Assembly (NCBI GenBank): GCA_031267675.1
Contig: JAIRYT010000024.1
Location: 1-64,000, forward strand
Length of the DNA stretch: 64,000 bases
Direction of reading: 5' to 3'
DNA from: Treponema sp.
GTDB lineage: Bacteria > Spirochaetota > Spirochaetia > Treponematales > Breznakiellaceae
How positions within the stretch are numbered: the stretch's first letter is position 1; each line of letters opens with the position of its first letter. The notes beneath the pieces were generated by a model. That model had not been told where the DNA came from, ran no database searches, and was given only the letters and a program-made list of their open reading frames with translations. Position numbers and translations under genes: made by a program. Shown here one piece after another: positions 42,689 to 55,045 of this stretch.

Positions 42689-43948
42689 TTATTCCCGGAA
42701 GCGCTTAAAGATAAGCGACGTGTTGATTCCCCCAAACGCAAAATTATTGCTCATCACATATTCGGTGTCGATGTTTTGGCCTTTGCCGGTGATGTAGCCA
42801 AGTTTGCCGCACTGTTCGTCACGTTCATAAAAATTGATGTTTGGGGCGAACCAGCCTTCCCTCATCATATTGATTGTGATCCATGCTTCGATTGAACCGC
42901 AGGCGCCCAGGGTATGACCGATGTAGTTTTTAAGCGTGCTTGCGGGAACGGGTCTGCCAAAAACCATTTCGGTGGCGATGCTTTCGGCAATGTCGCCGGG
43001 GCCGGTGGCTGTTCCGTGGGTGTTTACATAGCCTATGTCGAGGGGCGAAATGCCCGCATCTTCCAGCGCAAGGCGCATTGCGCCGGCCATTGTTTCTTTG
43101 TTGGGCTGGGTGATGTGCGTGCCGTCCGTGTTGGTGCCAAAGCCCGCTACTTCGGCAAAAATGGGCGCGCCCCGTTTGCGCGCATGTTCGTATTCTTCAA
43201 GGATCAGGGTTCCGGCCCCTTCACCAATGACAAGACCGTCGCGGTTTTTGTCGTAGGCGGCGGGGGTAATTTCCGGCCGGTCATTTTTGGTGCTTGTCGC
43301 AAAGAGGGTGTCAAAAACCGCGGCGTCGGCCGGACTCAATTCATCGGCTCCGCCTGAAATCATAATATCCTGAATTCCGTTTTGAATTATTTCATACGCG
43401 TTGCCTATTGCCATACTCCCCGAAGTGCATGCGGTATTTACCGTAACAAGTCTTCCGGTAAGGCCGTAAAAAATTTCAAGATTTGCCGCGCAGGTTTGCG
43501 GCATGGACTTTACATAGGTTGTCGCGCTCATGTGTTTTATGTCGTGGTCAACAAGGAGGGTAAAAAATTCTACCAATGGATCAACGCTCCCCATTGAGGA
43601 GCCGTATGCGACGCCGCAGCGGCCTTTTGGTATTTCGTCCGCGCAATTTTCTCCGCCCGCGCCGCTCAGGCCCGCCATTTGCATGGCCATGTCGCTCGCA
43701 TAAAGGGCAAGCATCGCGACCCGGCCCGTGCCGCGAATTTTCTTGCGGGGATACTGCGGAAAGGTACAGTCAACCGGAACGGCAAGGCGGGTGTTCATTT
43801 TTTCGTAGACATCCCATTCACGCATTGTCTTGACGCAGTTCTTTCCGGTTTTAAGCCGCTCGAGTATTACCGGCCATTCGGTGCCCAGGGCGCTGACTAC
43901 CGCTCCGCCGGTTACAACGACGCGTTTTTTATTGATCACAGTGGTCAT
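42689..43948 (-). CDS. Beta-ketoacyl-ACP synthase (ApeR-like position)
   Basis: This encodes 419 residues of a FabF-type thiolase fold. The catalytic Cys is in VNTACTSGSMA, the two His in YVNTHGTATGPGD and YIGHTLGACGS, and SNNFAFGGINTSL closes the active site, so it looks fully active. Such enzymes extend acyl-ACP by decarboxylative condensation with malonyl-ACP. It is the last of the chain of overlapping biosynthetic genes and overlaps the ketoreductase by four bases. By position it matches the terminal ketosynthase of APE clusters, which may make the saturated or primer part of the chain. Confidence 0.93.
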   Translation of the reverse strand: MTTVINKKRVVVTGGAVVSALGTEWPVILERLKTGKNCVKTMREWDVYEKMNTRLAVPVDCTFPQYPRKKIRGTGRVAMLALYASDMAMQMAGLSGAGGENCADEIPKGRCGVAYGSSMGSVDPLVEFFTLLVDHDIKHMSATTYVKSMPQTCAANLEIFYGLTGRLVTVNTACTSGSMAIGNAYEIIQNGIQDIMISGGADELSPADAAVFDTLFATSTKNDRPEITPAAYDKNRDGLVIGEGAGTLILEEYEHARKRGAPIFAEVAGFGTNTDGTHITQPNKETMAGAMRLALEDAGISPLDIGYVNTHGTATGPGDIAESIATEMVFGRPVPASTLKNYIGHTLGACGSIEAWITINMMREGWFAPNINFYERDEQCGKLGYITGKGQNIDTEYVMSNNFAFGGINTSLIFKRFRE

Positions 43949-44691
43949 ATAATACCGCCGTTTACCGAAATTACCTGGCGGGTAATATACGCGGCTTCTT
44001 CTGAAAGCAGAAAAACGGCAAGCGCCGCAACTTCTTCCGGCCTGCCCACGCGTCCCATGGGAACCGCCTGCAGCATTAGATCCAGCGGAGAATCTTTGAT
44101 CATTTCGGTTTCGATAATTCCCGGGGCGATGCAGTTTACCGTAATTGACCGCGACGCAAGTTCGACCGCCAGCGCTTTTGTGGCGCCGATAATTCCCGCC
44201 TTGGACGCGCTGTAATTTACCTGGCCGCGGTTTCCCATAATTCCCGAAACAGAAGACAGCGTTATTATCCGGCCCTGCTTTTTCCGGGCCAGCGGCAGAA
44301 TCAGCGGCTGGAGTACATTGTAAAAACTGTCAAGGTTTGTTTGAATAACGGAATCCCATTCCGCGCCGTCCAGCGCGGCAAAGGTATTGTCGGCGCAGAT
44401 TCCGGCGTTGCAGATTACGCCCCAGGGGACGCCGTTTTCCTTAAGCCACGCGTCAAGCGCCGCGCGGGTTTCTTTGCGGTTTTTTATATCAAAGCGAATA
44501 AGCCGGGCGTCCGCGCCGGGGTGGTTTTTATGTTCGGCGCGCAGTTCCGTTAGCAGCGACTGCGCGGCGTCCTCGCTGTTGTGATAGTGGGCGCTGACGG
44601 AATAGCCCGCCTTGGCGGCGGCCAGCGCTGTTGCCCGCCCTATGCCTCTGCTCGCGCCGGTAATAAGCACGTTTCTGTTATGATTGTCCAT
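43945..44691 (-). CDS. 3-oxoacyl-ACP reductase, FabG-type (ApeQ-like)
   Basis: This encodes 248 residues from the ATG at 44691 (MDNHNRNVLITGASRGIGRA). The cofactor loop GASRGIG, NAG, and the catalytic set SSVSGIMGNRGQVNYSASKA (Ser, Tyr, Lys) are intact. It would reduce the beta-keto group of the growing chain with NADPH. A start at 44721 would run further into the dehydratase gene and lacks support. It overlaps both neighbours, showing coupled translation in the cluster. Confidence 0.92.
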   Translation of the reverse strand: MDNHNRNVLITGASRGIGRATALAAAKAGYSVSAHYHNSEDAAQSLLTELRAEHKNHPGADARLIRFDIKNRKETRAALDAWLKENGVPWGVICNAGICADNTFAALDGAEWDSVIQTNLDSFYNVLQPLILPLARKKQGRIITLSSVSGIMGNRGQVNYSASKAGIIGATKALAVELASRSITVNCIAPGIIETEMIKDSPLDLMLQAVPMGRVGRPEEVAALAVFLLSEEAAYITRQVISVNGGII

Positions 44692-45166
44692 GAGGCTCCC
44701 GCTGTTTGATAAGCGCTTCAATATCGTCTGTTTCCGCGACAGTAAGCACCGCGCGGGCGACTGTTTCTTCGTTCCTGCCTACACGGCAGCGGAACGAAAA
44801 AACATTGTTTACCACTGTTTCTTCATTTACCTCGACGCGGGCAACGGCGCCTTCTTCCAGCGCGCCGTCCGCCGCTTCCATGCCCGAAACAGAAAGTATA
44901 AAACCGCAGCGCGGCGTTTGGTTCCGCCGCCTGGCGTACATTCCCGACAGGGCGGAAATGCCCTGCGCCATAAGTTCAAACGACGCCCAGGCGGGAAACC
45001 CGCCGTACCAGGAATCAAAAAAAAGCGACTGCCTGGTAATATCGTATTCGGCAACCAGTGAATGGCGCTCAAGATCACAGGAAATAATACGGCTGAGCCA
45101 CAACATTTTACCCCGGTGGGGAACCAGGTTTTCCAGTGTTTTGCCTTCTATTACTGACATCATCAA
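44678..45166 (-). CDS. Hotdog-fold 3-hydroxyacyl-ACP dehydratase (ApeP-like)
   Basis: This encodes 162 residues. LENLVPHRGKMLWLSRII contains the presumed catalytic His, and YGGFPAWASFELMAQGISAL the hotdog helix with the acidic partner. This matches the ApeP/FabZ-like dehydratases of APE clusters, which introduce each double bond of a polyene. It begins within the ketosynthase stop (four-base overlap) and ends within the ketoreductase start. Confidence 0.87.
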   Translation of the reverse strand: MMMSVIEGKTLENLVPHRGKMLWLSRIISCDLERHSLVAEYDITRQSLFFDSWYGGFPAWASFELMAQGISALSGMYARRRNQTPRCGFILSVSGMEAADGALEEGAVARVEVNEETVVNNVFSFRCRVGRNEETVARAVLTVAETDDIEALIKQREPHGQS

Positions 45167-46347
45167 TTGTATCCGTGATCCCTGCTGATAATCAAGCTGA
45201 CATTGCAGCCCCCAAACGCAAAGGAATTACTCATACAATAGCGTATTTCTGTGGAAGGGGAAAGCGCTTTGTCAACAAGGGCGGTTTTCTTTAGTGCGGG
45301 ATCGGGAACGCCGTCCCAGCGGTGAAGGGGAAGCGCCGGGTTTTTTGTCTGCGCCAGTACCGCGTAACAAATTGCCAGTTCCAGCGCGCCGGCCGCTCCC
45401 AGGGTATGGCCGGTTACCGGTTTTGTCGAACTGGCCGGCGCTCCGCATTCGCCAAATACGGCCGCCATCGCAGAGGCTTCGGCGCTGTCGTTAAGCGGCG
45501 TTCCTGTTCCGTGCAGGTTTACGTACGAAATGCCGCCGCCCGCGATACCGGCCGATTCAAGGGCGGATCTCATTGCAGCTTCGGCGCCCTTTCCCGATGG
45601 ATCGGGGGCGGTCATGTGAAAGGCGTCGGCGCTTTCTCCGTATCCCGACAGCACCATGCCGCCGTCCAGCGGCTCTTTTGAAACGACAAAAAACGCGGCC
45701 CCTTCGCCAAGCGTAATTCCCTTTCGGTTTTTGCTAAAGGGATTGGTAATTTCGCCGGAAACCGCTTCCAGCGCGGAAAATCCAAGCAAGACAGTGTCCG
45801 AGACAATGTCCACGCCGCCGGCAATTACCGCGCCGCATACTCCGCTTTGGACCAGATCGGCGGCGCGGGCAAGGGCGCTCGCGCTGGACGCGCAGGCGGT
45901 GCTGACGGCGAGCGCCGGGCCGCCCGCGCCAAAGAAGCCGGCGGTAAAATCGGCGGGAGGCGCGGCGCTTTGGAAGTCAAGTTCATAGCCGGAAGGAAAA
46001 CCGCCGCCGGCAAAAAACGCGCGGTGGGCCGGTACGGACCATTCGGTGCCGTTATCGCAGGAACCAACGCATACGCCGACGCGCGGCGCGCCCCAGCGTC
46101 CGAGCGCCCGTTCAACGGCCGGCCGTATCTGTTCCAGCGCCGCCGCGCAGAGCGAAAAAACGCGCGTAGTATGCGTCAAAGGCAGCCGGCAGCGTCCGGC
46201 AAGGAACTGTTTTTTTACCGCGGCGTTTTCTGTTTTGTATACCTGTATGCCGCTTTTACTTTGGGGATCGGTACAGGCGTTAAACAGATCGTCCAGGGAA
46301 TTACCCGCGCAGGAGACAAGTCCCGGACGGGAAAGGTATAGCCGCAT
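45163..46347 (-). CDS. Beta-ketoacyl-ACP synthase (ApeO-like position)
   Basis: This encodes 394 residues. The nucleophile is in VSTACASSASAL, and both His are present (YVNLHGTGTPLND, VTGHTLGAAGALEL), with SNSFAFGGCNVSL at the end. It is more diverged than the other ketosynthase. In characterised APE pathways the ApeO ketosynthase works with a chain-length-factor partner, ApeC; no such partner with a lost Cys is visible in this window. The start overlaps the lipoprotein stop by one base (TGATG). Confidence 0.9.
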   Translation of the reverse strand: MRLYLSRPGLVSCAGNSLDDLFNACTDPQSKSGIQVYKTENAAVKKQFLAGRCRLPLTHTTRVFSLCAAALEQIRPAVERALGRWGAPRVGVCVGSCDNGTEWSVPAHRAFFAGGGFPSGYELDFQSAAPPADFTAGFFGAGGPALAVSTACASSASALARAADLVQSGVCGAVIAGGVDIVSDTVLLGFSALEAVSGEITNPFSKNRKGITLGEGAAFFVVSKEPLDGGMVLSGYGESADAFHMTAPDPSGKGAEAAMRSALESAGIAGGGISYVNLHGTGTPLNDSAEASAMAAVFGECGAPASSTKPVTGHTLGAAGALELAICYAVLAQTKNPALPLHRWDGVPDPALKKTALVDKALSPSTEIRYCMSNSFAFGGCNVSLIISRDHGYN

Positions 46348-46928
46348 CAGTTTTCCACGGCTTGATTTTGCGCGGGAGTATTGACGATGGTGTATGAATA
46401 TCCCCTAAGCTTGTTGGTATACGTAACATCTGTATAGGTTTTAATAATTTCGATAATAAGCGCGCCGTCCTCGTATATGCGCCGTATACTGGTTCCGGGA
46501 ATTTCGCCGGCATCGCTTTTAATTGTTAATCCCGCAAGCGCCTTTTGCAGTTCTTCGACGCGGTAATAGCATAACTGGAAATCCGCGGCAAAATATTCGG
46601 CTTTTATATTTTTGGGAAGATACGGCGAGGAAATTGCCGCCGCACCGCTGTGGTATTCAAATTCGCCGAGGCTGGCGCCAAAATTGTTAAAAAAAAGCAT
46701 TGAAATACCTTTCGCGTCTGCCTGTACCCAGGCGCCCGCCGTAAATTCAGTGTCGCCGTACCGGGCGGTGATACGCTGTTCCGTATCAAGCGCCTCCTCG
46801 ATGTATGCCGGATCGAGCAGCGTAAAACTTCCCCTTTCGCCCAGGAGTATTTCTTTGTCAAAAGAAACGTTCCCGCAGGAAAAAAGAAAAACAGCGGCAA
46901 AAAGAAAAGAAATTTTTAACGTGGTCAC
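46347..46928 (-). CDS. DUF3261-like lipoprotein of the APE cluster (ApeN-like)
   Basis: This encodes 193 residues from a GTG at 46928 that overlaps the exporter stop (GTGA) and follows GGAGG. The N-terminus TTLKISFLFAAVFLFSCGN has a spirochete-type lipobox ending at Cys. The mature part (FLPKNIKAEYF-like strands, DFQLCYYRVEELQKALAG) fits the DUF3261 lipoproteins that accompany the MMPL exporter and LolA-like carrier in APE clusters. It probably acts in placing the lipid in the outer membrane. Confidence 0.75.
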   Translation of the reverse strand: MTTLKISFLFAAVFLFSCGNVSFDKEILLGERGSFTLLDPAYIEEALDTEQRITARYGDTEFTAGAWVQADAKGISMLFFNNFGASLGEFEYHSGAAAISSPYLPKNIKAEYFAADFQLCYYRVEELQKALAGLTIKSDAGEIPGTSIRRIYEDGALIIEIIKTYTDVTYTNKLRGYSYTIVNTPAQNQAVEN

Positions 46929-49342
46929 TGGGGCCTCCAAAAAACCTGCGCGCTCTTAAACAGCATCGCGGCGCAAAACGCGGCGCTTAACGCGGGAAAA
47001 ACAGCGGCGGCAAAAATATAGACCGGCGTAAAGGAACTTGCCAGGAGCGCTCCGAAAGAAAGCGCGGTAGTAAGGAACGAAAGAATAACCGCGCCAGCCG
47101 CTGATTTTTTTGTTGGAGCGGAATCTTCGGTTAGGTAAAAGATATAATCAAGGCCAAGGCCGAAGGCAAGCATAATTCCGACCGCGCTAAAGAACGAAAG
47201 CGATTCGCCGATACACACAAGAACGGCAAAGCCCCAGCTTACCAGAATGAGCGGCACCGCGGCGATTTTAAGTACGTCAACGGCGAATCTTTGCCAGCCG
47301 TAGTGTCCGGCAGGTTTTTTTAAAAAGCGATAGTAGAGGCAGACAGCTGCGATAATTACCGCATAGGCGGCGGCAAGAAGGCGGAACATGACAATCGTAA
47401 GGGAATCCAGTTCCCTGTCAATATCGCCGGCCCTGTCAACAAGCGCGGCCCATTCAAATGTTGACGCGGCCTTTTCAAGCGCTTCCCGGTCGCCGGCATT
47501 CGGCGAAAGCGGCATAAGACAGTGGTAAAAGACGGGACCCGCCGCGCCCTCTACCGCGCCGATAAACAGGGAGCGGTAAAGCTGCTGTATGGTTTCCGGA
47601 AGTTCCGCTTCTGCGGCGGCAAAATAATTCCGGCGGGCTTCAAAGGCGTCGAGGTAGGGCGCGGCGAGGGGAGGGAGTCCCAGCGACATAAATTGAATTT
47701 CGGCAAAGGGAATCAGGGCCCCGGCGGCGTTGTAGCTTCGCCGCTGTTTAAGGCGCGAGGGAATAAAGCGTGAAATTCCCAAATAGCCGCCGCCATAGGC
47801 TTCGGCAAAGGCTTCTTCGCGCTGGAGGGTTTCTTCTTCGCTCCTTCCCCTGATAATAACGTACGATGGGAATGACGAATAATTAAAAAGCCGCGAAACG
47901 ATTTTTTCTGATTCCATCAGGGCGGGAGGCATTGAATAAAGGCGGCTTATCGTATTTTTTATGGTTACATTGCGCCGGTTATGGACAAGCAAAAGAAGCG
48001 GCGTAATAACAAGAAACGCCAGCGCGATTAAAAGAGGCGCCCGTTTCCACCGTTTGGGGGCGTTGCCGGCTGTATGTTCCCGCCGTAAAAACGCGTTCCG
48101 CGTCCGGGTTCCGGGCGGCAATGCCGGAAAAAGGCAAAGGGCGCTTAGATAACTGGAAAAAAGCCCCGCCGCGGAAAAAAGGGCAAATTCCTTAAGTATG
48201 GTAAAGGGGGTAAAGAAAAGGACGCAAAACGCCACCAGCGACGAAAAAAAACTTAAACTTACGCCGCGTATAATGCGGGCGCGGCTTTCAATGCCGGAAA
48301 GCCCTTCGCGCCGGCGCATAAAAAAATGCACCGAATAGTCGACGCAGATTCCAATTAACGAAACGCCGAATACAAAGGTAAGGATATTGATTTCTCCAAA
48401 AACCAGAAACACCAGCGCGGTTCCCGAAAACACAGAAGCCGCGCAGGCAAAAAGAATCATAAGGACCGGGAACAGCGAGCGAAAAACAACAACAAACATA
48501 ACAAGAATCAGTATCAGGGTTACCGTGCTGATAAACGCGATTTCTTTTTGCGCGCTGCTCGAACTTTCGTAGCTGTGAAAGGGAATGCCGGAATATAAAA
48601 AGCGCGTGTTTGACGCCGCGTTTGTTTTGCGGACATTCTGCAAAACGGTGTCCGCCGCGCCGTACATAAAACGTACGCCGCTTTGGCGGTTTGCAAGAGA
48701 CGCGCCGTTTTCGCTTAATACGCCGCGAATCATCACATAGGATTTTCCCTCAAAATTCGCGCTTAGTACGCTGTCGCGCGGCGCCATGTTTCCGCCGCCG
48801 GCCAGGGCGGCCGACGCAAAGCGGTTAAGGATTCGCGCGGAAAGCAAAAAAGGATCGCGGTCAAGCTGATCCAGCGGAACAAGCGAAAAAGCGCCGTACG
48901 CGTGCGCGAGCGCTTCATCGGCAATATTTTTCGCGTTGCCGCTTTCAAGTTCCGCTATGGTGTCATTGTCAAGAAGCTGGTAGCGGTAGGTTTCAATATA
49001 CGAACCAATGCTATCCATAAAATCGCCTGTGTATAACGAAACTTCTTCAAACGCCGCGTTCCCTTCAAGGTTTGCGTACAGGCTTGCCGCCGCATCCCGC
49101 GCGCCGGCAAAGGTGTCTGCTTCCGCCATAACAATAAAGGAACGGCTGCCGCGTTTGACAAAAAGCTGGTCCGCTTCATAAAAATCGCCGTCCATTGTCT
49201 TTGGCATAATGCTTTGCAGATTGGTTTCAACTTTGGGAATATGTCCAAAAAAAATCAGGGCGCACAGCGCAGCGGCGCTTATGCCGTGAAACAGAAACCA
49301 AACGGCTTTTGCGTTAACGGGAAAAACAGGCTTTTTCATCAT
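46925..49342 (-). CDS. MMPL/RND-type lipid exporter of the APE cluster (ApeM-like)
   Basis: This encodes about 805 residues from the ATG at 49342 (next ATG 49339). Two six-span bundles, each after a large periplasmic loop, are visible: IAFISTVTLILILVMFVVVF with GVSLIGICVDYSVHFFMRRR in the first, and SAVGIMLAFGLGLDYIFYLT in the second. The VDYSVHF and LDYIFYL segments are typical of MMPL transporters, which move lipids or polyketide lipids out of the inner membrane using proton flow. It overlaps the LolA-like gene by 29 bases and the lipoprotein by four. Confidence 0.9.
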   Translation of the reverse strand: MMKKPVFPVNAKAVWFLFHGISAAALCALIFFGHIPKVETNLQSIMPKTMDGDFYEADQLFVKRGSRSFIVMAEADTFAGARDAAASLYANLEGNAAFEEVSLYTGDFMDSIGSYIETYRYQLLDNDTIAELESGNAKNIADEALAHAYGAFSLVPLDQLDRDPFLLSARILNRFASAALAGGGNMAPRDSVLSANFEGKSYVMIRGVLSENGASLANRQSGVRFMYGAADTVLQNVRKTNAASNTRFLYSGIPFHSYESSSSAQKEIAFISTVTLILILVMFVVVFRSLFPVLMILFACAASVFSGTALVFLVFGEINILTFVFGVSLIGICVDYSVHFFMRRREGLSGIESRARIIRGVSLSFFSSLVAFCVLFFTPFTILKEFALFSAAGLFSSYLSALCLFPALPPGTRTRNAFLRREHTAGNAPKRWKRAPLLIALAFLVITPLLLLVHNRRNVTIKNTISRLYSMPPALMESEKIVSRLFNYSSFPSYVIIRGRSEEETLQREEAFAEAYGGGYLGISRFIPSRLKQRRSYNAAGALIPFAEIQFMSLGLPPLAAPYLDAFEARRNYFAAAEAELPETIQQLYRSLFIGAVEGAAGPVFYHCLMPLSPNAGDREALEKAASTFEWAALVDRAGDIDRELDSLTIVMFRLLAAAYAVIIAAVCLYYRFLKKPAGHYGWQRFAVDVLKIAAVPLILVSWGFAVLVCIGESLSFFSAVGIMLAFGLGLDYIFYLTEDSAPTKKSAAGAVILSFLTTALSFGALLASSFTPVYIFAAAVFPALSAAFCAAMLFKSAQVFWRPQ

Positions 49343-49976
49343 CGGTAAGCGACTGGGCGAATTGCTGGTTTGAAAGCGCATAGCTGATGGTATCGCCCTT
49401 TTGTTCCTGAAAGAACAGTGAAGCAATATGCGTGCCGCTTGATCCTTTTATAATAATTGCCGGGGCAAATTGTTTAATCAGGGGATCGCGGGGAATAAGC
49501 CCCAAAGACCACGCGCCGTTTGATTCGGCAAAGTATACTTCAAAACCTTCTTCAAGCGCTTTCGCGTCTCCGGAAAATACGGCGCTCATTGTTTCCGCTA
49601 TGCGGACAAACGCGGCGTTTCCCGCTGTTTCCAGCCGCGTCTTTTTGCCGCCGTTTATTTCTACCAGATAATCCCTTCCTACCGCGGTGATTGACGGATA
49701 GGGTTTTCGCGTATCCCAAATCATTCCCTCTCGCGAAATGGTAAATACGCCGCTTGAAACAAGCGTTCTGCCAAGGCTCTTGATGGTTCTGGTTTGTACA
49801 AAATCGCCCCGGACTACCGGCTGCGACGAAATTCCCCGGCATATTTCCCTAAAGCGCGGACGGTTTGCGCTGTTTAAGGGGCTCTTAAAAATTCCTTCCT
49901 GAACATCGGGAAGCTGCGCGGCGGCAAACGGCGCAAACAGTACCAAAAACAGGACGCTGACGCGGGTTACATTCAT
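49314..49976 (-). CDS. LolA-like periplasmic carrier (ApeL-like)
   Basis: This encodes 220 residues from the ATG at 49976 (MNVTRVSVLFLVLFAPFAAA, a signal peptide). GDFVQTRTIKSLGRTLVSSG, then FTISREGMIWDTRKPYPSIT matches the half-barrel of LolA-family proteins, which ferry lipids across the periplasm. LolA-like proteins are a fixed part of APE clusters and are thought to carry the product or its lipid. A start at 50051 would precede the signal peptide and is rejected. Confidence 0.87.
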   Translation of the reverse strand: MNVTRVSVLFLVLFAPFAAAQLPDVQEGIFKSPLNSANRPRFREICRGISSQPVVRGDFVQTRTIKSLGRTLVSSGVFTISREGMIWDTRKPYPSITAVGRDYLVEINGGKKTRLETAGNAAFVRIAETMSAVFSGDAKALEEGFEVYFAESNGAWSLGLIPRDPLIKQFAPAIIIKGSSGTHIASLFFQEQKGDTISYALSNQQFAQSLTDDEKACFSR

Positions 49977-49989
49977 TTTTCTGTTTTCC

Positions 49990-50409
49990 TTATGATAATA
50001 ATTTTTCCACACGGTCGATAAAAACGGCGGGGCAGGCGAAACAGGATTCATTTTTTTTGATGCAAAACGCCATTTGGGTGCTTGTTCCTTTTGTGGTTAT
50101 GGTTCCTTCTTTGTCGTAAAATTCATATTTGATCCTGATGCAGTTTTCGTATTCGTCAAGAATCGCCTTTGCGCGGACCGTATCGCCAAAGCGAAGGGGG
50201 CGTATATATTTGAGTGATATGCCGGTCACCGGAAACGCATAGCCCGATTCTTTCATGGCGGAGTATCCGTAACCAATCTTGTCAAGCAGGGCGCAGCGGG
50301 CTTTTTCCATGTATTTAACATAGTTTCCGTGCCACACCAGCTCCATAGCGTCAACATCGTAAAATTCCACCGTAAAAATAATTTCAGCTGTCAGTTGACG
50401 GGGATCCAT
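49990..50409 (-). CDS. 4-hydroxybenzoyl-CoA thioesterase family protein (ApeK-like)
   Basis: This encodes 139 residues from the ATG at 50409 (MDPRQLTAEIIFTVEFYDVD), preceded by GGAGG. The hotdog motif FYDVDAMELVWHGNYVKYME contains the catalytic Asp. In APE pathways a thioesterase of this type releases or edits acyl-ACP. Longer frames upstream belong to the acyltransferase gene, which it overlaps by 26 bases. Confidence 0.9.
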   Translation of the reverse strand: MDPRQLTAEIIFTVEFYDVDAMELVWHGNYVKYMEKARCALLDKIGYGYSAMKESGYAFPVTGISLKYIRPLRFGDTVRAKAILDEYENCIRIKYEFYDKEGTITTKGTSTQMAFCIKKNESCFACPAVFIDRVEKLLS

Positions 50410-51370
50410 ACGGCCTCCAAAAATCATAAAAATTATACCACTGATGGGGGTTCCGCAAACAGTATGTTTCAAGAAGGGACGCAAAACGGCGGGCGGCGTC
50501 ATTGATCCACGCGCGCGAAACGCCTGGGCTTTCTTTGCGGAGCCGATGAACATGCATGTTATATTCACTTGAAATTGAAAGCGCTCCCCGGCGAAGCGCG
50601 AAAACGGCATAGACGGGCGCTTCAAGCAGCGACGCCAGAATAAACGGCCCCTGGGGGAACGGCGCGGGGCTTCCCAAAAAGGAAATCATAAACGGTTCAT
50701 GGCGCTTGTGCGCGTGTTTCTGGCCGTCCGGTTTGGGCGTCCGGTCGGCGGCAATAACTACCAGGCCGCCGTCCACGATATGCCGCAAAAGCATGGTGAC
50801 GACGCCGGCGTTTATGCCGGCGGAATCAATAATCCGCAGGCGGGAACGCGGGTTTAATTCGGCGAGCATGCGGGCATAATGGGGCGTAATTTTTGAATCA
50901 AGCACCGAAATTACCGGAATGTCCCGTGATACGCCGGTGCGCGAATAATCGGCCAGGGCGCGGAGCAGTTCCGAATTACCCAAGTGAGAAGTAAGCAGCA
51001 CCGCGCCTTCTTTTTTTTCAAGGCGGTCAATCAGCTGCGGTATATCGTCGTTTTGAAAATGGATATGCGTAAAATCAATTTTGCCTCCCCATGCCTGGAC
51101 TTTTTCGGTAATGGTAATCGCAAAGGCAATCACCTGTTTAAGGCTTTGTAAAGCGTTAAACCGCTTGATCGCGCCGGCCGCGGCGGCATGCGCAAGATAG
51201 CGGCGTGATTGTTCACGCACGTTTTTTGCGGCAAGGAAAAAACAAAAACCAACCGGAAACGCCAACAGGCGAAGCAGGAGCGGCGGCAAAAGTTTAAACA
51301 GAAACAGCAGCAGTTTAAGCTGCCGGTAACCGGCAACTTCGTTCTGCCCGGTCCAGTGCTGATCGTTCAT
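50384..51370 (-). CDS. Lysophospholipid acyltransferase-like enzyme of the APE cluster
   Basis: This encodes 328 residues. A hydrophobic N-terminal stretch (LLLFLFKLLPPLLLRLLAFP) anchors it. The HX4E catalytic motif is in LLTSHLGNSELL, and VVIAADRTPKPDGQ and GSPAPFPQGPFILASLLEAP are the later LPLAT blocks. It would attach the polyene acyl chain to a lipid head group. In well-studied APE clusters I recall this domain fused to the glycosyltransferase; here they are separate genes overlapping by four bases. Confidence 0.88.
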   Translation of the reverse strand: MNDQHWTGQNEVAGYRQLKLLLFLFKLLPPLLLRLLAFPVGFCFFLAAKNVREQSRRYLAHAAAAGAIKRFNALQSLKQVIAFAITITEKVQAWGGKIDFTHIHFQNDDIPQLIDRLEKKEGAVLLTSHLGNSELLRALADYSRTGVSRDIPVISVLDSKITPHYARMLAELNPRSRLRIIDSAGINAGVVTMLLRHIVDGGLVVIAADRTPKPDGQKHAHKRHEPFMISFLGSPAPFPQGPFILASLLEAPVYAVFALRRGALSISSEYNMHVHRLRKESPGVSRAWINDAARRFASLLETYCLRNPHQWYNFYDFWRPYGSPSTDS

Positions 51371-52146
51371 GTTTGGTCTTCCCGGCGTGATTTACATTTT
51401 CGCGCGACGAGCAGCGGCAGGCGTATAATCATGCCAAAGAAAAGCCGCGAAAACGAAAACGATATGCGTACATTGTCGGCAACCATGCGAAAGTGTGAAA
51501 TACCGTCCGCAGGATAATTTACCCTGACCGGAAAAAAAACAAGCGGAACGCCCGCCCATACAAAGCGTACAAGTATTTCGGGATCGAAGGCCATGCGTTT
51601 ATCGATCCAGGTGTTCTGTATGACGCGGAGCGAAGCGTCAACAGGATAAACGCGAAAACCGCAAAGACTGTCTTTAATGTCGTTTGACAATGTACAGACC
51701 CGCGACCAAAAGCGCGAAACCTCCCGGCCCTTTAGGCGGGCAGGGGGAACGCTTTCGTTGTATTCGGGCCTGCCGCAGATCGCCGCCCGGGGATTTTTTT
51801 GCGCCTGTTCAAGAAAAAAACGGCAGCGCGAAACATCGTGCTGGGCGTCTGCGTCTATTTGCAGCACATGGCTCAGCCCCCTGTCGCGGGCATAAAAAAA
51901 TCCGGCGATAAGCGCCGCGCCTTTTCCTGAATTCTTTTTAAGACACAGCGAACTTGCCAGGGGAAAGGCGGTCAGGGTTTCCGCAAGCTGTTGTTTTGTT
52001 TCATCATCGCTTCCATCGTCAACAATAATAACGGGAAGATCAAATTCAACAAGCGAGGCGACAACTTTTTTGATTGTCCGCCCGTGGTTGTACAGCGGAA
52101 CAAGAAAACCGGCTTTGAAAATCATATCCGGTTCGGTGTTATTCAT
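51367..52146 (-). CDS. Family 2 glycosyltransferase of the APE cluster
   Basis: This encodes 259 residues from the ATG at 52146 (MNNTEPDMIFKAGFLVPLYN), which overlaps the end of the ligase fusion by eight bases. The GT-A features are VPLYNHGRTIKKVVASL, IIVDDGSDDET, NSGKGAALIAGF and the DXD-like LQIDADAQHD. It probably adds a sugar to the lipid part of the product. There is no extra membrane domain. A start at 52254 would lie within the upstream gene and is not favoured. Confidence 0.9.
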   Translation of the reverse strand: MNNTEPDMIFKAGFLVPLYNHGRTIKKVVASLVEFDLPVIIVDDGSDDETKQQLAETLTAFPLASSLCLKKNSGKGAALIAGFFYARDRGLSHVLQIDADAQHDVSRCRFFLEQAQKNPRAAICGRPEYNESVPPARLKGREVSRFWSRVCTLSNDIKDSLCGFRVYPVDASLRVIQNTWIDKRMAFDPEILVRFVWAGVPLVFFPVRVNYPADGISHFRMVADNVRISFSFSRLFFGMIIRLPLLVARKCKSRREDQT

Positions 52147-54540
52147 CCGCTGCCGGCGGATACATAAAAATTGTCCCCGAAGAATAACGCAGGGAAGGAT
52201 CGCGGGATGATTCAAACGAAAACGCAAGTTCATTATTTTTACGCCGGTAGTCAAGCGTTAGATAAACGGTAATGGCGGGCGGTATAATATTGCTGAATTT
52301 GACGCGCCTGAAAGAGGATATAAAACGGCCGCAGCGAAAAGCAAAATCCGCGCAGCGTACCACAAGATCGATCTGGGCGACGGCGGGCAGTATTTTATAC
52401 GCGGGAAAATGCCCGTCAAAACAGGGGCAGCCGCCTGAAACCGAAAGCGAAAACCGGGCGGAATCCCCGGCGTCTGATTTTTTGGTTAAAACGCAGTCGA
52501 TACCTTCATGGGCCTTGAGCCGAAGCTGCCCGGCGGGATTTTCGGGATTGTTGAGATTGTTGAGATCGGGAGGGGAACCGGGATTTTCAAAGAGCGCGCG
52601 GATAACTTCGCCCTGGGCCTTACCCTGCGGATTGCGGGGAATGGCTGTAAGGTAACGCCATTTTTTGGGAACCAGAACCGGTTCAAAAAACCGCAGTAAA
52701 TAGTCGCGGAACCACTGGTTAATGCGGCGTTTTTCCATTCCGCCAAATTTTTGCGTTCCTTCTTCGTTAAACGACAACGCCGCCGCAAGGTACTGCCGGT
52801 TTCCCTTCATGGTGATTGATACGGCGTCGCTGACAAAACCCGACTGCAAAAGCCGCGTTTCTACTTCGGTCAGCGAGATGCGTTTTTCTTCTATTTTGAC
52901 AATTGAATCGGCTCTGCCGTTAAGCAGGAAGCGGCCGTCGTCAAAAATTTTGGCAAGATCGCCGGTGGTGAACCCCGCCGGATCTTTTATATAAACGGAT
53001 TTAATTACCAGGCAGCCCTGGTCGTTAAGCCAAATTTTTGCGTTGTCAAACGGCGTCCATTCGGGCCCCGCGTTTGACTGCCTAAAGGCGATGCCCGCTG
53101 TTTCGGTGCTGCCGTATACTTCAACCGGCCAAAACCCGAAACATGTTTCGGTTTTGGCCGCTACCTCCACCGGAAGCGCGCCGCCGGAAGTAAATATCCA
53201 GGGCGATAAAAGCTTTCCGGCGCCTTTGCCGCAGCGTTTTAGAAACGCCGGCACCGTAACAAAAAGGTACGAAGTATCGCGCAATTCTTCCATTGTTTCG
53301 GGATATTCAATGCGCCCTCGGCGAAAGGGAACGCCTGCGGTAAAAGGAAGCATTACCGAAAAAAGAAGGCCGTAAATGTGATGGGGGCTTACCGAAGAAC
53401 ATACCTTGCGCGAAAGAAATTCTTCGCCCCATTTTGAAAGTATGAACGCGTTGTCTTCTTCAAATTCGGTAAGCCGCTGGCTTACCGCTTTGGGACTGCC
53501 GGTAGTTCCCGAAGTGTACATAATGATTTCTGTCGCGGCGGCGTCAATGGGCGGCGCTTCCTCCGCCTCTTCCGTCCCGTCCGCGCGTACGATATCAGGC
53601 ACATAGAAACTTTTTACCGGCGTTCTTTGACCCGCTTCGGCATTGTCGGTAATAAAAGCGGCGTCATGACCGCCGGTTATTTCGGCGATATAGCCGGGAG
53701 CGATGTTTGCGCTAAGGAGCACGGTTTTTTTGCACTGGAGCAGCGCGGTAAAGCCAAGCAAAAAGTACCAGTAGTCGTTACAGTGAAGAATCCAGCGTTC
53801 CGCTTTTTCACCGTTGATAAGGGCGCGGAGCCTGGCGGTTCCCCGTAAAAAATCATCCCAGCTTTGATGAAGGCCTTCGCTGTAACGCCCGCTAAAGCAC
53901 ACGCACGCGCCGCCGCTTCGTGAATCCGCGGTAAAGCGCGAAAGGGGAACTGCTTTGGGAAGGCGCTTTTGAACCATTTTTCGTACGCCGTATTCTACCG
54001 CAAAAAGCGTCCCCATGAGAATATAGGAGACGCCGCCGTTGTAGACCGCCCAGATTTCTTCGCTTCCCCACAGGATTGTGTAAAGCGCGGCGCTTCCGTT
54101 AAGGATAAAAAACGCGCACCAGATCGCCGTTACCGTACGACAATATGCTTCAACGTGTTTTTTTGCGAGCGGGGAAACTTTTTTTTGCAGGCGATCCGCC
54201 ATCACGGCAAAACGGAAGACCATGGAAGGCGGACGCAAAAGCGTGTAACCGAACGCTCCCAGTAAAACGGCGGTAACGCAGAACGGATACAGTTTAAGGA
54301 TGAACGATTTGCCGCTTACAAAGGCAAACGCGCCGGCGGCGGCAAGCAGCAGGGCGTGAAACGCGGGCTTTTTTTTTTCGCGCCGGTAACAGAAATAAAA
54401 AAAACAACGCCGCAGCCAAGGACGGCAAGCGAAACAATACGCAGGGGAATTTTAAAAATCACCAGACCGCAGAATATCAACAGGGGATAAAGCGCGGCGG
54501 CCGTTACGGGAATGATTTTACGGATACTTTTGATGTTCAC
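52139..54540 (-). CDS. COG4648-like membrane domain / acyl ligase / dehydratase fusion, needs -1 frameshift
   Basis: From a GTG at 54540 the zero frame encodes 57 residues with two membrane spans (PVTAAALYPLLIFCGLVIFK, VSLAVLGCGVVFFISVTGAK) and then runs into a stop 18 codons later. Slipping -1 on ten A (54369-54378) gives one continuous product of 800 residues: further spans (ALLLAAAGAFAFVSG, YPFCVTAVLLGAFGY), an ANL adenylating domain (YTSGTTGSPKAV, YGSTETAG, TGDLAKIFDDGRFLLNGRAD, Lys in NPQGKAQGE), and a C-terminal FabZ-like hotdog (CPCFDGHFPAYKILPAV). This joins what APE clusters carry as three genes (membrane protein, ligase, dehydratase). Without slippage, translation from the TTG at 54238 could make the ligase part alone. 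Confidence 0.82.
54369..54378 (-). promoter_or_regulatory. Ten-A slippery run, candidate frameshift or phase-variation site
   Basis: Ten A followed by G on the coding strand. In the zero frame it reads AAA AAA AAA AGC; after a -1 slip AAA AAG continues the long frame. A-rich runs of this kind support ribosomal or transcriptional slippage, and their length changes readily in replication. No Shine-Dalgarno-like stimulator is visible just upstream. Confidence 0.5.
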
Positions 54541-54785
54541 TCCCTGACCAGCGGATAAAGAACCTCAACTACATCCTGAACAGTCCGTACATTTTTAAAC
54601 TGTTCGCTTTCGACTTTACCCGAAAGAAGCGGCTTCATTTTGACGATAAGATCAACCGCATCGATGGAATCAAGGTCAAGATCGCCAAGCAAATCCGCCT
54701 CGGGCGTTACGACGCTGTCTTCCAGGTCAAATTCTTCCATTAAGACTGTTTTTAGCTTTTTAAAAACAACTTCTTTTTTTGTCAC
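54537..54785 (-). CDS. Acyl carrier protein (second in the APE operon)
   Basis: This encodes 82 residues: EADLLGDLDLDSIDAVDLIV contains the Ser that receives phosphopantetheine. It is acidic and helical, as usual for ACPs. It overlaps both the first ACP gene and the following fusion gene by four bases (GTGA). Two distinct ACPs are typical of APE clusters (ApeE and ApeF). Confidence 0.93.
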   Translation of the reverse strand: MTKKEVVFKKLKTVLMEEFDLEDSVVTPEADLLGDLDLDSIDAVDLIVKMKPLLSGKVESEQFKNVRTVQDVVEVLYPLVRE

Positions 54786-55045
54786 GTGCTTTTCTCCGAA
54801 GCAAAAATATAGGCGGCAAGGGCGTTAACCGAAGCGAAGTTCTTTTTATTGTCCGCGCTTTCGGCAGAAAAGGTAACGCCGAATTTTTTCTTGAGCGCGA
54901 CTCCCAGTTCCAGCGCGTCGATCGAATCAAGTCCCAAACCGGAACCAAAGATTGGCTCGGAATCCACGATGTCTTCCGCTTTTACATCTTCCAGTTCAAG
55001 GGCGCTGACAATAAGCTCTTTGATTTTTCGCTTAAGCTCGTCCAT
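54782..55045 (-). CDS. Acyl carrier protein (first gene of the APE operon)
   Basis: This encodes 87 residues from the ATG at 55045 (MDELKRKIKELIVSALELED). The phosphopantetheine site is GSGLGLDSIDALELGVALKK. A start at 55081 lies upstream of the predicted transcription start and is rejected. There is no Shine-Dalgarno; the promoter -10 box ends six bases before the ATG, so translation is probably leaderless. It carries the growing chain for the ketosynthases downstream. Confidence 0.93.
   Translation of the reverse strand: MDELKRKIKELIVSALELEDVKAEDIVDSEPIFGSGLGLDSIDALELGVALKKKFGVTFSAESADNKKNFASVNALAAYIFASEKST

Follow-up and report, generated by a model that had tools for sequence, protein, structure and literature searches.

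How is a biosynthetic gene expressed when a run of ten A divides it between two reading frames? This question is raised by an aryl-polyene operon in the window, i.e., the whole stretch of 64,000 nucleotides analysed here, where the fused ApeG-ApeH-ApeI gene lies on the minus strand. T10 on the plus strand at 54369-54378 is read there as AAAAAAAAAAG, in the context GGCGCG AAAAAAAAAA GCCCGCG (54378-54369), and the gene is divided at this run. A first-pass annotation had described such a division of a membrane/ligase/dehydratase fusion, and we have confirmed it on the minus strand and found an A10 at the orthologous place in relatives. The zero frame opens, as had been proposed, with an in-phase GTG (54540) that is coupled to the ACP gene by overlapping its stop as GTGA. 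It encodes the two expected membrane spans, both hydrophobic, in an ORF of 74 residues, and soon stops at 54316, 17 residues past three Lys codons, i.e., about 17 codons after the run. The -1 frame is open from 5' of the run as far as a stop at 52139 and holds all the conserved downstream sequence, that is, the further spans, the whole AMP-binding ligase (a PF00501 match with E 6.9e-16) and, at the C-terminus, an ApeI-like domain (PF22818, E 1e-4, short of the Pfam cut-off). The protein of this frame is roughly 46-73% identical to its homologues in relatives.

Judged from their domain families, the genes around the A10 run form an aryl-polyene cluster, and an aryl polyene lipid is the predicted product. 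An ACP pair, ligase, glycosyltransferase/acyltransferase, thioesterase, LolA-like carrier, MMPL exporter, DUF3261 protein, ketosynthase, ApeP, ketoreductase and second ketosynthase follow one another in this order (Table 1). The aryl polyene cluster of E. coli, listed as E/F/G/H/I/J/K/L/M/N/O/P/Q/R (PMC8253772), has the same gene set in the same order, whereas here G, H and I are fused and broken by A10. A standalone ApeG-like membrane protein is encoded elsewhere in the window's genome (G000, locus L145, C109:28215-28610); it is ~34% identical to the fused ApeG part, and its neighbour gene resembles CDP-alcohol phosphatidyltransferase.

Table 1. Features of the interrupted gene and its cluster (positions in the window), and frame states of the two genes with A10 runs in related genomes
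Feature	Position, or genomes	Strand	Remark
A10 run (AAAAAAAAAAG), putative slippage site	54369..54378	-	orthologous A10 in 16 further genomes
Zero-frame ORF, GTG to stop, 74 aa	54316..54540	-	first two ApeG-like membrane spans and short non-conserved tail
-1 frame continuation, to stop	52139..54370	-	rest of ApeG-like membrane part, ApeH-like AMP-binding ligase, C-terminal ApeI-like dehydratase domain
First acyl carrier protein of operon	54782..55045	-	PF00550
Acyl carrier protein, stop overlaps GTG start (GTGA)	54537..54785	-	PF00550
Glycosyltransferase family 2 (ApeJ N-terminal-like)	51367..52254	-	PF00535
Lipid A-type acyltransferase (ApeJ C-terminal-like)	50384..51370	-	PF03279
Thioesterase (ApeK-like)	49990..50625	-	PF13279
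LolA-like carrier (ApeL-like)	49314..50051	-	PF03548
MMPL/RND exporter (ApeM-like)	46925..49426	-	PF03176
DUF3261 protein (ApeN-like)	46347..46940	-	PF11659
Ketosynthase (ApeO-like)	45163..46347	-	PF00109/PF02801; best NCBIfam NF006618, slightly below cut-off
ApeP dehydratase	44678..45166	-	PF22817
Ketoreductase (ApeQ-like)	43945..44721	-	PF13561
Ketosynthase (ApeR-like)	42689..43948	-	NF006587, above its cut-off
Aryl-polyene gene, A10, -1 needed	G000, G001 (g1); G059 (g6); G049, G080 (g49); G054 (g54); G008 (g8); G230, G250, G245 (g45); G189 (g42); G207 (g10); G043 (g43)
Aryl-polyene gene, A10, +1 needed	G248 (g45)
Aryl-polyene gene, A10, in frame	G088, G205 (g57); G044 (g44)
Aryl-polyene gene, A11, in frame	G002		same context
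Aryl-polyene gene, A9, in frame	G244
Second gene, -1 needed	G008 (L165/L176), G044 (L169), G052 (L170), G025 (L177)
Second gene, +1 needed	G051 (L175), G042 (L183), G054 (L191)
Second gene, in frame	G049, G080, G036, G030, G033		loci L154/L167, L161, L171, L174, L192

We have searched the -1 frame protein in 149 and then 200 related genomes, plus GTDB contigs, the last yielding named relatives from Treponema and Spirochaetaceae. Most orthologues run through the region as a single continuous frame, including those of cultured or named Treponema (T. socranskii, T. porcinum and T. bryantii). In one family, A10 occupies the corresponding Lys-rich loop, between membrane spans, in 17 genomes from 11 genera; 13 of them need -1 to reach the downstream frame, one needs +1, and three are in frame, though these counts share ancestry and are thus non-independent, and the genomes are mostly draft assemblies. 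Reading the run length in relatives, as the first-pass annotation had suggested, gives, where the run is present, a mostly constant A10 with a varying frame, an in-frame A11 once (G002) and an in-frame A9 once (G244). Among the orthologues compared, no out-of-frame member has A7, A8, A9 or A11 in the Lys-rich loop; G032 (L038), whose A9 lies in a gene with another N-terminal arrangement, was left aside. From the run, the zero frame stays open for 9-34 codons in the shifted relatives and for 113 in the +1 case. These data make a sequencing or assembly error, with the true run in frame, very improbable. Homopolymers are error-prone and most of these genomes are drafts, but an A10 that requires -1 recurs at this place in 13 separate assemblies of 9 genera, runs longer than 10 have been assembled elsewhere in the related genomes, and the single-contig genome G030 also has A10, at a second gene described below.

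How unusual such a run is depends on the measure. Against dinucleotide-shuffled sequence, which is expected to hold 3.96 T10/A10 runs per window, a single one is nothing unusual. Actually, A/T runs in the window drop ~2.5-fold per added base, and runs of at least 9 are fewer than this trend predicts. The whole 2.49-Mb genome has ~90 A9 runs, only two A10 runs and none longer, and its other A10 (C98:2323-2332) adjoins an intergenic terminator-like repeat. That is, A10 is rare when set against real run counts, and is otherwise nearly absent from coding DNA. Most related genomes have roughly 2 to 20 A10 runs, and one has more. A coincidence of site was rejected, since an A10 at the same place would arise by chance at ~1e-4 to 2e-5 per genome.

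We have further compared substitution rates in two shifted pairs, G000/G001 and G049/G080 (dN 0.12-0.42, dS 0.46-1.6). On both sides of the run dN/dS is ~0.2-0.5, with the lower values after it, similar to the in-frame pair G088/G205. Such ratios indicate purifying selection before and after the run in the shifted genomes, and the unchanged A10 in both members of pairs with so diverged synonymous sites appears notable. As to start codons, in 13 of the 14 shifted genomes the downstream frame has no ATG, GTG or TTG ahead of the run. In the window's genome the first one comes 46 codons past the run, beyond the conserved LKLYP motif, while some other shifted genomes have an earlier TTG or GTG after the run, at no conserved place, so that re-initiation is not a general answer. 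A split or dying gene, its downstream part being made by re-initiation or being a pseudogene, is thus hardly credible: the zero frame does stop soon after the run, but the conserved post-run LKLYP segment has no start codon ahead of it in the window's genome or in several other shifted ones, selection is not relaxed, and continuous orthologues are common, also in cultured Treponema.

Most continuous orthologues also have Lys-rich sequence in this loop (e.g., SKKK), often including A7-A8, and Lys codons are therefore the probable origin of the run. In a 42-row tree, it is present in the early-branching G207 and G054/G008 and in several later members, with at least 7 changes between run and no run. 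An old run that was repeatedly lost would be the simplest reading, although the number of changes fits gain or loss equally. Two other Treponema assemblies (L074 and L079) have a long charged Lys/Asn/Glu-rich insertion at the same loop, with A9 in frame.

Sampling 54 loci with A/T runs of at least 10 elsewhere in the related genomes has led to a second, unrelated gene, to which 3 of the 54 runs belong; the remainder are mostly intergenic. Its product is a spirochaete protein with a membrane anchor, an acidic middle and a C-terminal LDxxFKxLVDSV motif, and has no Pfam match. In 12 genomes this gene has A10 (A11 in one) ~80-150 codons before the C-terminus, a position judged by distance and context rather than by residue-level alignment; four of these need -1, three need +1 and five are in frame. 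No such run was found in the second gene of G000 and G001.

Overall, we consider it rather probable that the A10 run of the aryl-polyene gene is an old, selectively kept site of transcriptional slippage. RNA polymerase copying T10 would generate mRNA of mixed run length (A9, A10, A11 and others). From the templated A10 message the 74-residue two-span stub would be translated, whereas a message that has gained one A or lost two would bring the downstream codons into frame and yield the complete ApeG-ApeH-ApeI protein of ~800 residues. One slippery run could thereby feed all three frames, and lineages would need to keep only the run, as its frame relative to the flanks could drift. The probable effect would be to set or damp the amount of starter ligase and membrane partner in aryl-polyene synthesis; the run may serve to lower the dose, may fix a ratio, or may be a tolerated relic. 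We infer from sequence comparison that the slip is made by RNA polymerase and not by the ribosome, and its efficiency and regulatory role likewise.

Several observations are consistent with this. Of the properties that mark programmed transcriptional slippage (PTR), an A/T run of at least 8-9 bases stands at the frame transition (A10), and the run is conserved across orthologues beyond chance (17 genomes, 11 genera, with shared ancestry only partly removed). Its length agrees with the 9-10 bp hybrid and with the threshold of nine A/T bases reported for bacterial slippage (PMC1088944, PMC5009743), and thus points to RNA polymerase. According to Antonov and colleagues (PMC3711429), a variable shift direction among orthologues is a sign of transcriptional realignment and is absent under ribosomal frameshifting; the ratio of -1 to +1 is 13:1 for the aryl-polyene gene and 4:3 for the second gene. 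On the other hand, many orthologues of the aryl-polyene gene do without the run, which we have counted against a slippage site.

Programmed -1 ribosomal frameshifting, in which tandem tRNA-Lys slips one base back on A_AAA_AAA within the run, seems unlikely. The heptamer does lie in the zero frame (within GCG AAA AAA AAA AGC), 13 of the 14 shifted aryl-polyene orthologues need -1, and in G001, from which only part of the tRNA set was recovered, tRNA-Lys(UUU) was found and tRNA-Lys(CUU) was not. However, the direction is not always -1, as G248 and 3 of the 12 second-gene genomes need +1. Seven A's would suffice for a ribosome, yet no shifted orthologue is found at A7-A9, and the shifted sites use A10/A11 instead. 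Moreover, in-frame A10 orthologues keep the run with no need of a -1 shift, and no shifted genome has an SD-like motif upstream or a strong stem downstream, where folding is only weakly better than that of shuffled sequences (z mostly -1 to -2). It should be said that the choice of mechanism leans on the single +1 orthologue (G248) and the second gene, as the 13 of 14 at -1 would alone also fit ribosomal frameshifting.

Phase variation, in which replication slippage would toggle the gene between on (e.g., A11) and off (A10) from cell to cell, appears more improbable still. In its favour, envelope components are a usual class for phase variation, A10 can mutate, and G002 has an in-frame A11 in the same context. 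But the run length is 10 in 28 of the 31 homologous sites whatever the frame, and in this between-species comparison it is the flanking bases, not the repeat length, that set on and off states apart. The dN/dS values of the shifted genomes are not relaxed. Clearly coding runs elsewhere are few and unshifted, those sampled (L147, L150, L162 and L211) being all in frame. MutS homologues are also encoded in the clade, though the window's genome, which is 88% complete, has only a lower-scoring MutS-family match, the stronger one being found in relatives. Of the four readings put forward by the first-pass annotation, recoding in general thus stands and an assembly error falls away; the occurrence of both shift directions favours transcriptional slippage over -1 ribosomal frameshifting, and the constancy of A10 across different frames favours it over phase variation.

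Slippage at A9 or A10 is already known from Thermus dnaX, Shigella secretion genes, transposases and ant endosymbionts (PMC3017870); the unusual part here is the frame-agnostic conservation in two genes. Thermus thermophilus dnaX slips at A9 (PMC1088944, PMC5009743), and two-ORF dnaX genes with A10 are known in nine species (PMC3711429). These resemble our case in having 9-10 A in a chromosomal gene and one template for three frames, but gene and phylum are different, and the long form of Thermus is in the templated frame, whereas the templated frame here usually gives the short form. In Blochmannia and Buchnera, poly(A) frameshifts rescued by slippage (PMC3017870 and references therein) are likewise kept across species with no gene decay; those genomes, however, are very AT-rich and have >100 coding poly(A) tracts of at least 9, while this genome has 2.5 Mb, its window has 51% GC, and its coding DNA is nearly free of A10. 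Shigella mxiE and spa13 also need slippage for the full product, and IS630-type transposases with +1 and -1 members also show no conserved direction (PMC5009743, PMC3711429), but the present site is in neither a mobile element nor a secretion gene. In the open-access literature, outside which most subscription papers lie, we have come across no spirochaete gene described as having a slippage site.

More tentatively, and somewhat short of probable, this spirochaete family may deliberately use A10, irrespective of frame, as a device for expressing two or more unrelated chromosomal genes, where selection would keep the run, flank indels would move the frame, and a set fraction of transcripts would yield each product. 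The data suggest family-wide RNA polymerase slippage in bacteria that are neither AT-rich nor reduced endosymbionts. Read in the templated frame, the aryl-polyene gene comes out interrupted in 14 genomes, and annotation pipelines would be inclined to label genes of this kind as broken. With orthologues that carry the same run in each of the three phases, nature offers a series in which it is directly testable whether the run is kept for regulation or merely tolerated.

A third shifted gene, at T10 of L164, was considered among the sampled runs and rejected, as two overlapping genes with no shift are found there; from their sequence we take them, by eye, to be Mu-like phage head genes. Outside clear coding sequence, A12 and A14 runs at L152 (G049) and L159 (G080), and also a run at L223 (G044), are followed by a similar GAGTCAAGRGG motif in different genera, possibly as a shared regulatory or repeat element.
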